NCBI RefSeq assembly: GCF_000422945.1
Contig: NZ_AUHA01000002.1
Coordinates: 992,001-1,056,000 of the forward strand
Length of the DNA stretch: 64,000 bases
Origin: Daejeonella oryzae DSM 19973
GTDB lineage: Bacteria; Bacteroidota; Bacteroidia; Sphingobacteriales; Sphingobacteriaceae
Direction: 5' to 3'
Shown here: piece by piece, positions 55,572 to 58,408 of the stretch
Position numbering within the stretch: position 1 is the stretch's first letter
How the letters are laid out: every line of letters starts with the position of its first letter
Translations under genes and position numbers: made by a program
The notes under the pieces: model-generated
Database searches by the model: none
What the model was told of the DNA's origin: nothing
What the model saw: only the letters and a program-made list of their open reading frames with translations

Positions 55572-56348
55572 ATGCTCAGCAAGAAAAAGCAAAAGAAGTT
55601 TCTTCTGAATAAATGCGTAAATATTATTTATTATATGAACGCATTTTGCCAAAGAAAGAATGCAGAAGATCTGCATCAAATGCGTGTTGAGATTAAAAAA
55701 TTAAATGCCTTTATTTTCTTTTTAAAAAAGCAATTCGGCAGCAATTTCTATGCAAATATATTATCTCCTGTTAAAAATATTTTTAAAGAGGCCGGTGTAA
55801 TCAGAACTGCACAGGTTAACTTAGAACTTGCAAAAAAAATTGATCTCAAAAATCCTAATGTGATTAATGATCTGATTAAAAGAATTGATACAGGGTCGTT
55901 GGAATTTTGTATGAATAGGTTGGAAGCCAGCAAAATGATGCAGCGATTTGTACTACAAATGTTGCCTAGTCTCAAAGAGATACGAACTTCCAGAATCAAA
56001 AAGTTTTTTAGAAAAGAAATTGAAAAATCAAATCCGCAATTGCTAGGAAAACTCAGTACAAAAGAATGGCATCATTTGAGGAAAAAAATTAAAATTCTCC
56101 TGTATGTTCATCAATTTTTAAATGAAGATATTCAGATGAAAATAAAATTAAATCGCTCTTACTTAAATAATCTGCAGGAATCAATTGGAATGTTGCATGA
56201 TGTTGAAATTGTTTCAGGATTGATAGATAGAAATGAACGGGCCGGAAAAGCACTCGTTAAAAAATTGGGTGGCGAAATGGCTTTGCAAGAGAGATGTTTA
56301 CATGAAGAAATTCAAAATTATAATTCTAAAGTTTTCTCACGCGGGTAA
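55572..56348 (+). CDS. CHAD-domain protein
   Basis: A 258-residue helical protein rich in Lys. CHAD features: ADLHQMRVEIKKLNAFIFFLK-type first helix (here NAEDLHQMRVEIKKL), and WHHLRKKIKILLYVHQFL with the conserved His/Arg/Lys cluster. CHAD domains bind inorganic polyphosphate through these basic residues. No polyphosphate kinase or phosphatase is adjacent. Followed by the tRNA-like gene. Confidence 0.85.
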   Translation: MLSKKKQKKFLLNKCVNIIYYMNAFCQRKNAEDLHQMRVEIKKLNAFIFFLKKQFGSNFYANILSPVKNIFKEAGVIRTAQVNLELAKKIDLKNPNVINDLIKRIDTGSLEFCMNRLEASKMMQRFVLQMLPSLKEIRTSRIKKFFRKEIEKSNPQLLGKLSTKEWHHLRKKIKILLYVHQFLNEDIQMKIKLNRSYLNNLQESIGMLHDVEIVSGLIDRNERAGKALVKKLGGEMALQERCLHEEIQNYNSKVFSRG

Positions 56349-56436
56349 AAAAATAAAAAATAATTTGACAAAAATTTTAAATATTCATTATCTTGTACTT
56401 AAATAATTAAATTAATAAGATTTTATTATTTTTTTG

Positions 56437-56519
56437 GGGGTGATGCCAGAGTGGTCAAATGGGACGAATGGTAAATTCGTTAATTTTTGTTTACGGAGGT
56501 TCGAATCCTTCTCCCCCCA
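56437..56519 (+). tRNA. tRNA-Tyr(GUA)-like gene, probably degenerate
   Basis: Type-II tRNA of 83 bases. Acceptor 56437-56443 pairs with 56512-56518 except for one U-C mismatch; T8; D stem CCA/TGG; anticodon stem ACGAA/TTCGT around the loop TGGTAAA; variable arm of 14 bases with a weak TAA/TTA stem; T arm GGAGG-TTCGAAT-CCTTC; discriminator A. The loop gives anticodon GTA, but position 33 is G instead of the near-universal U. The CCA end is not encoded. It may be a pseudogene or a non-canonical tRNA. Confidence 0.7.
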
Positions 56520-56633
56520 CAATTTCTTGCACTTCCCTGTTTCTAAGGGTGATTTTAGACAATGAAGTTTGAGTATAAATATTCCTGTAAAGATTTTAAA
56601 GATAATTTTATGGAATATTTATACTCTTAAATC

Positions 56634-58379
56634 TTACAAATCTGTTTTAATTTTCAGCTCTTTTAACTGAACTTCAGAAATAGTTGAAGGCGAATCAATC
56701 ATTACATCTCTTCCGGAATTGTTTTTAGGAAAAGCAATTACATCTCTGATTGAATCCAATCCGGCAAAAATGGAAACAAGGCGATCAAAGCCAAATGCTA
56801 TTCCGCCATGCGGAGGTGCTCCATATTCAAAAGCATCCATTAAAAATCCAAACTGTTTTTGAGCCTCTTCATTGCTGAAACCAAGATGTTTAAACATTAA
56901 AGCCTGCAATGTACGGTCATGAATCCGGATAGACCCACCTCCAATTTCAGTACCATTAATTACCATGTCGTAAGCATTGGCTCTAACCTCGCCCGGATTA
57001 GTATCTAAAAGGGCAATATCGTCAGGTTTTGGTGAAGTAAACGGATGATGCATGGCGTGGTACCGCTCATTTTCCTCATCCCATTCTAAAAGCGGAAAAT
57101 CAAGAACCCATAATGGTGAAAACACATTTTTATCGCGTAAGCCCAGACGGTTTCCCATTTCAAGGCGTAATTCACTTAACTGCTTCCGGACTTTTTCAGT
57201 AGGGCCGGCCATTACTAAAATAAGGTCACCGGGTTCAGAATGGTATAATTCTGACCATTTTTTCAGTTCATCTTCATTGTAGAATTTATCCACTGATGAT
57301 TTCAGTGTTCCGTCGGAGTTGTGGCGTAAATAGATTAATCCGGTAGCGCCAATTTGTGGTCGTTTGATAAAATCGGTCAGTTCATCCAATTGCTTACGTG
57401 TATAAACCGCACAATTTTTGGCTTTTATTCCAACTACCAGTTCTGCATTGTCAAAGACAGGAAATCCTTTTTCTTTAACCAGTTCATTCATTTCAACAAA
57501 CTGCATTTCAAAACGTGTATCGGGCTTGTCAGAACCATATAAGCGCATGGCATCTGCATAGGTCATCCGGGGAACATCTGCAAGATCAATGTCTTTGACA
57601 TTTTTAAACATTATACGGATTAAACCTTCAAAAACATTTAGAATATCTTCCTGCTCAATAAATGCCATTTCGCAATCTATCTGTGTAAATTCAGGCTGAC
57701 GATCCGCACGCAAATCTTCATCGCGAAAGCATTTTACAATCTGGAAATATCTGTCGAAACCCGACACCATCAGCAACTGCTTAAACGTTTGCGGCGATTG
57801 CGGAAGGGCATAAAATTCTCCCGGATTCATACGGCTTGGGACTACAAAATCTCGTGCCCCTTCCGGAGTTGATTTGATCAGAACCGGAGTTTCTACTTCT
57901 ATAAAGTCCATTCCGTCCAAATATTTTCGGACTTCCTGGGCCATTTTATGTCGTAATACTAAATTATTTCTAACGGGATTTCTGCGAAGATCAAGATAAC
58001 GGTATTTCATCCGAAGATCTTCTCCGCCATCGGTTTCATCTTCAATTAGAAATGGCGGTAATTTGGCGGCATTTAAAACCTCGAGACTGGAAACTTTAAT
58101 CTCTATTTCGCCGGTTGACATTTTTAAATTTTTGCTGGAACGCTCAATTACTTTACCGCTTACTTTAATCACAAATTCACGGCCTAATTCACGGGCCTGA
58201 GCTCTTAAAGCTGCATTGTCATCCGAATTAAAAGTTAACTGAGTAATACCGTAGCGGTCACGCATATCAACAAAGGTCATCCCACCCAGATCGCGTGATT
58301 TTTGGACCCAACCTGTTAAGGTTACCTCTTTTCCCAGATCGCTGATAGTTAATTCGCCGCAGGTATGTGTTCTAAGCAT
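56634..58379 (-). CDS. aspS: Aspartate--tRNA ligase
   Basis: A 581-residue class-II aminoacyl-tRNA synthetase. I start it at the ATG at 58379 ([13 protein letters not shown]); the longer frame to 58403 would run into a promoter box at 58401-58408. OB-fold: [27 protein letters not shown] by position. Class-II motif 2: [23 protein letters not shown], with [10 protein letters not shown] as motif 3 (GIAFGFDRL). The GAD insertion is present, as in bacterial AspRS. Length typical. Confidence 0.97.
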
Positions 58380-58400
58380 TATTTTAAATTTAAATACCTG

Positions 58401-58408
58401 CAAAAGTA
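58401..58408 (-). promoter_or_regulatory. Putative -7 box of aspS (TACTTTTG)
   Basis: Minus-strand TACTTTTG matches TAnnTTTG and lies 21 bases upstream of the ATG at 58379. It also argues against the longer aspS frame. Confidence 0.45.

Follow-up and report, generated by a model that had tools for sequence, protein, structure and literature searches.

An extra tRNA-Tyr(GUA) gene without U33 in Daejeonella oryzae, probably a lineage-private duplicate under relaxed selection

We report here the analysis of an extra tRNA-Tyr(GUA) gene in the genome of Daejeonella oryzae DSM 19973, which has a G directly before the anticodon where U33 is expected. On the whole, the gene is probably a duplicate private to this lineage that evolves under relaxed selection, i.e. 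a pseudo-tRNA in the making. The genome has a paralogue with U33, the relatives searched do not have the extra copy, and the divergence of the extra copy is in excess of that of functional orthologues. Three readings of the gene were offered by the first-pass annotation, and that of a decaying extra copy is the best supported among them on account of its privacy, its 13 differences, its low score and an upstream promoter match that does not rise above shuffled DNA, although it is unproved and the stems are mostly intact. The genome (3.45 Mb, 99.5% complete; G000 below) has the window, i.e. the whole stretch of 64,000 nucleotides analysed, in a contig of 1.59 Mb (C1).

The extra gene, its paralogue and its flanks

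The features of the extra gene are as follows, in positions of the window.

56437..56519, plus strand: extra tRNA-Tyr(GUA) gene, class II, positions 1-73 (ARAGORN; Rfam RF00005, 43.4 bits)
56441, plus strand: U5 facing C68 (56514), unpaired, the sole broken pair among the 20 counted (sequence, Rfam, pair count)
56464..56480, plus strand: anticodon arm, stem ACGAA/UUCGU (alignment with the cluster copy)
56469..56475, plus strand: anticodon loop UGGUAAA (sequence; ARAGORN anticodon position 35)
56481..56494, plus strand: variable arm of 14 nt (12 nt in the cluster copy), with a weak AU-rich stem (alignment with the cluster copy)

ARAGORN calls a tRNA-Tyr(gta) at 56437-56520, ending one base later (C74) than the RF00005 match at 56437-56519, which covers the full model length with an E-value of 1.5e-6 and passes the gathering score of 29 for the family. 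C74 is encoded without a full CCA, the same as in the normal copy of this genome. The GUA anticodon (56471-56473) and A73 are both present (sequence, ARAGORN), and the loop reads U32 G33 G34 U35 A36 A37 A38, so that the position of U33 in tRNA-Tyr is taken by the G at 56470. The claim of a tRNA-Tyr(GUA) with G before its anticodon is thus confirmed by ARAGORN, Rfam and direct reading, and the same annotation was right about the gene end at A73 (56519), the U-C mismatch in the acceptor stem and the AT-rich anticodon stem, the last being perfectly paired in spite of its composition. The D stem is intact, and the T stem contains one G-U. A pattern for tRNA-Tyr with a base other than U at position 33 has a single match in the window and none in 100 shuffles, and of 20 genus genomes it matches in this one alone (counts from the pattern being lower bounds), which together show that the match is not due to chance.

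In comparison with bacterial tRNA-Tyr(GUA) of class II in RF00005, the gene shares the full cloverleaf, GUA, A73, G1-C72, the long variable region and a D-arm typical of the family (GAGTGGTCAAATGGG), while it is unlike them in G33 for U33, U32 for C32, U5-C68, G9 and a rewritten, longer variable arm. The bacterial TyrRS identity elements, which we take to be those of the E. coli type (G1-C72, A73, G34 and U35), are all intact.

A second, normal tRNA-Tyr had been predicted from the window alone, and it is indeed found at C1:13569-13650 on the minus strand, with U33 and clustered with other tRNAs in a Thr-Tyr-Gly-Thr arrangement common to nearly all relatives fetched. With this functional paralogue present, the extra copy is dispensable. 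Among 36 distinct tRNA genes read in the genome it is the sole one without U33, and its 43.4 bits are the second-lowest of 37 RF00005 hits, near the 44.6 bits of an ordinary tRNA-Leu; the lowest score (41.4 bits) belongs to an extra tRNA-Cys at C4:87992-88063. The gene is solitary, outside any tRNA operon (ARAGORN, window). A search of the genome for a second TyrRS finds two PF00579 (Tyr/Trp-type) proteins and no more, the number that a TyrRS and a TrpRS would account for.

The extra gene has a CHAD-domain gene, a glycosyltransferase and aspS as neighbours, and its flanks contain the following features.

55572..56348, plus strand: CHAD-domain protein gene, 88 bp upstream of the tRNA on the same strand (PF05235, 50.8 bits)
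56365..56395, plus strand: TTG-N20/21-TATCTTG, resembling a promoter no more closely than shuffled versions of this upstream DNA do
56571..56626, no strand assigned: perfect 15-bp inverted repeat with 26 nt between its arms, in the gap between the tRNA and aspS
56634..58403, minus strand: aspS (aspartyl-tRNA synthetase), convergent downstream neighbour (PF00152, 411 bits)

The upstream promoter score is 7 of 9 (TTG-N18..22-TAnnTTTG), which is the commonest value in shuffled upstream DNA, while tRNA genes with their own promoter mostly score 8-9, with several ordinary exceptions. The TTGACA/TATCTTG upstream was dropped as a real promoter, since shuffles score equally. Transcription by read-through from the CHAD-domain gene is possible, since 88 bp separate the end of that gene from the tRNA, which has the same orientation. 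Downstream, the region 56555-56640 folds well below shuffles (z = -4.3) with no T run after the inverted repeat, which may act as a bidirectional terminator. We also considered a mobile element around the gene and rejected it, as the plasmid matches are confined to the glycosyltransferase stretch.

Elsewhere on the contig, a tRNA-Phe 3' fragment (C1:86183-86246) and a full tRNA-Phe (C1:105908-105980; L029, L001 and L234) flank an island of about 20 kb whose ends, within tRNA-Phe, are att-like. It contains a phage-type integrase, a type I restriction-modification system, a GmrSD-type restriction protein and DUF3871. No anticodon nuclease acting on tRNA-Tyr is found in this island or in ten window proteins, and a PADLOC scan of the same ten gives no convincing defence gene.

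Divergence and distribution

The extra copy differs from the cluster tRNA-Tyr at 13 aligned positions, while the cluster tRNA-Tyr in 15 of 16 same-genus genomes has 0-2 differences from that of G000, showing that the extra copy has diverged faster than functional orthologues. The sixteenth congener (G015; L056), an atypical genome of 68% completeness, has a tRNA-Tyr with 14 differences from the same gene; its placement in the genus may be wrong, or the genome may be mixed.

Eight of the substitutions are outside the variable arm and four of them are in stems: two are compensatory, changing pair 30-40 from G-C to A-U on both sides, another introduces the G-U of the T stem, and the fourth breaks 5-68. 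As a result, 19 of the 20 counted pairs are kept, where the count excludes pair 13-22 and the variable arm. Neutral substitution was simulated 200,000 times: no more than one pair was broken in 13% of the runs, and 3% combined this with a compensated pair. This weakens stem compensation as a strong argument for selection, and the retention of stems is only mild evidence of past or weak constraint. Because 13% of neutral runs leave as few broken pairs, a decaying gene and a recently functional one look the same in the stem data, with which recent or weak function is compatible.

An orthologue of the extra copy is absent from 19 same-genus genomes, and when 251 family genomes are searched at the DNA level with the extra copy, the best match is one of 83%, to a cluster-type gene, and no orthologue is found. 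No tRNA adjoins aspS in 29 relatives, nor is synteny with the window downstream of aspS found in three congeners. Without an orthologue in the relatives searched, the extra copy arose, or was retained, in this lineage alone. All 29 tRNA-Tyr genes of the fetched loci have U33. When position 33 is left open, the tRNA-Tyr pattern matches in 155 of 395 genomes of a class sample, and among the matches listed all others have U33; the pattern reaches about 39% of class genomes, from which its counts are lower bounds. A relaxed non-U33 pattern in 400 family genomes gives the extra copy and three others, whose anticodon arms are unpaired as judged by eye.

In a wider search, the non-U33 tRNA-Tyr pattern gives 14 hits in 84,980 species genomes (again a lower bound), nine of which are no tRNA by ARAGORN. 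The other five are tRNA-Tyr-like, all in MAGs:

L112:1399-1482, Selenomonadaceae MAG: G33, otherwise normal cloverleaf, near other tRNA genes
L106:510-597, Bacilli MAG: G33
L104, Peptostreptococcaceae MAG: A33, inside a large tRNA cluster
L114, Clostridiales MAG: A33, cut off at the contig end
L105, Lachnospiraceae MAG: C33

No other complete tRNA-Tyr is found in these five MAGs by one heterologous query, distant for some of them. The five are like the extra copy in being tRNA-Tyr(GUA) without U33, and L104 and L112 are unlike it in their location near other tRNA genes. In viral contigs no non-U33 tRNA-Tyr is found. A phage origin of the extra copy has also been considered and dropped, since phage records give two weak matches only (75-77%) and no sign of it.

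tRNA-Cys genes without U33 in the family

The extra tRNA-Cys mentioned above (C4:87992-88063; L166:7993-8064) is a second, diverged copy which keeps U33 and has a T-stem mismatch and an AU-rich anticodon stem, and it has relatives of 82-86% in G006, G013 and G015. This gene prompted a wider search of the family. A pattern for tRNA-Cys without U33 matches at 30 places in 400 family genomes, distributed in 16 genomes and 8 genera, with none in the reversed control; ARAGORN calls tRNA-Cys(GCA) for 28 of the 30, mostly with C33 and some with A33.

L191-L220: U33-less extra tRNA-Cys(GCA), in G015, G023, G050, G439, G455, G457, G464, G467, G474, G580, G664, G685 and others

Some form tandem arrays of three and five (G023, G455), and G015 has six dispersed extra copies. 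In an alignment of 17 of these genes, 96.5% of the stem cells are paired, and double-sided changes are seen in 10 of 20 pairs, four of the five anticodon-stem pairs among them. Shuffled and slid controls give far lower values. In genus g32, TAnnTTTG is present at 20-22 bases upstream in all six distinct copies checked. A cluster-type tRNA-Cys with U33 is also read in G013 and G006. Neighbours shared by the C33 tRNA-Cys genes amount to one weak histidine-kinase pair, flanks otherwise being shared only by orthologous loci within a genus. Apart from the chromosomes, a 246-kb viral contig has two tRNA-Cys genes, with A33 and C33, and a second viral contig has one with A33 (L223, L226). Overall, U33-less spare tRNAs are apparently maintained in the family.

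Decay, function and the alternatives

A plausible course of events for the relaxed duplicate is the following. A duplicate of the cluster tRNA-Tyr gene would have been split from its operon and promoter, and would now yield little transcript or none. The U5-C68 mismatch and the changed core would lower the stability of any tRNA produced. The U-turn of the anticodon loop depends on U33, a nearly universal base, and G33 should disturb this turn if the tRNA is charged, giving poor decoding of UAU and UAC; a poor decoder is what we would expect from the role of U33 and from the lowered decoding of a G33 tRNA in Candida. With the cluster copy carrying the load, such changes in the extra copy may be tolerated. 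Counted against this reading are the largely kept stems, the intact TyrRS identity elements, the score near that of tRNA-Leu and the U33-less tRNA-Cys apparently maintained in the family. The last keeps functional rivals alive, and the rare functional exception allowed by the first-pass annotation has the kept stems on its side, although the relaxed duplicate is better supported.

Several known systems are comparable. In Candida albicans, tRNA-Ser(CAG) is an otherwise complete class II tRNA with G33, which lowers leucylation and decoding (PMC1991585); it serves a reassigned codon, whereas the extra tRNA-Tyr is redundant for codons which have a normal tRNA. Bacillus cereus tRNA-Other, a pseudo-tRNA with a non-translational role (PMC3399842), is likewise encoded by an additional tRNA-like gene whose anticodon is that of a normal isoacceptor, but it is expressed, regulated, relevant to phenotype and present in several bacilli, while the extra tRNA-Tyr is private to one genome and known from sequence. 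Phage tRNAs, proposed to escape anticodon nucleases through anticodon-loop changes (PMC10264068), share with our gene an extra tRNA and a changed loop, and the phage tRNA-Tyr which rescues from depletion of tRNA-Tyr by Retron-Eco7 PtuAB (PMC11555353) shares the tyrosine isoacceptor; unlike these, the extra copy is chromosomal, without a strong promoter and without a phage neighbourhood. The literature on tRNA gene decay and on U33 mutants of tRNA-Tyr provided nothing directly usable.

The best alternative to the decaying duplicate, itself rather unlikely, is a functional minor spare which would be charged with tyrosine, decode inefficiently and escape, by its U32 G33 loop, an anticodon nuclease depleting tRNA-Tyr. 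It would account for the retained stems and identity elements, and it agrees with the recurrence of U33-less tRNA-Cys in the family, with their stem covariation and the TAnnTTTG boxes in g32, and with the viral contig of 246 kb having A33 and C33 tRNA-Cys. The loop changes proposed for phage tRNAs (PMC10264068) and the rescue from Retron-Eco7 (PMC11555353) provide precedents, but the extra copy has no good promoter, is present in a single genome and has no convincing defence gene by PADLOC in the ten window proteins. A broader proposal, speculative and a little less probable again, takes the G33 tRNA-Tyr and the C33/A33 tRNA-Cys as one family-wide class of chromosomal spares that keep the fold without U33, retained for resistance to toxin or defence nucleases or for a role outside the ribosome.

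A tRNA-like RNA working outside translation, as a regulatory RNA or amino-acid donor, would lose U33 without harm as it never enters the ribosome. We consider this improbable: G33 should impair decoding, tRNA-Other is a precedent (PMC3399842) and the gene is alone outside tRNA operons, but there is neither conservation nor a promoter signal, nor a partner gene in the neighbourhood beyond the CHAD protein and aspS. Such a non-translational job had been among the suggestions made from the window, and nothing found points specifically to it. It is very improbable that the gene encodes a dual-identity or mistranslating tRNA whose decoding is damped by G33, comparable to Candida tRNA-Ser(CAG) or the A33-bearing bacterial tRNA-ProX. 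Some natural mistranslating tRNAs do have G33 or A33 according to a review (PMC11415595), and G33 lowers both decoding and leucylation in Candida (PMC1991585), but here the anticodon, A73 and the overall sequence are consistently Tyr with no hint of another synthetase, and the count of two Tyr/Trp-type synthetases fits a single TyrRS and a single TrpRS. The least probable explanation is a sequencing or assembly error at position 33. The single genome would fit it, but the 13 differences including a compensated stem pair indicate that this is a separate locus, not the normal gene misread, and the locus is inside a 1.59-Mb contig.

If the extra tRNA-Tyr is no more than a dying duplicate, it shows cleanly which tRNA positions are the first to be lost under relaxed selection; if it is expressed, it would test naturally, on a chromosome, how far a bacterial tRNA-Tyr can do without the U-turn uridine. 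In itself the gene is of modest interest, and the U33-less tRNA-Cys class is the more deserving of follow-up: the C33/A33 tRNA-Cys genes exist in multiple copies, conserve their structure and in one genus have promoter elements upstream, which makes the question of U33 testable at scale.
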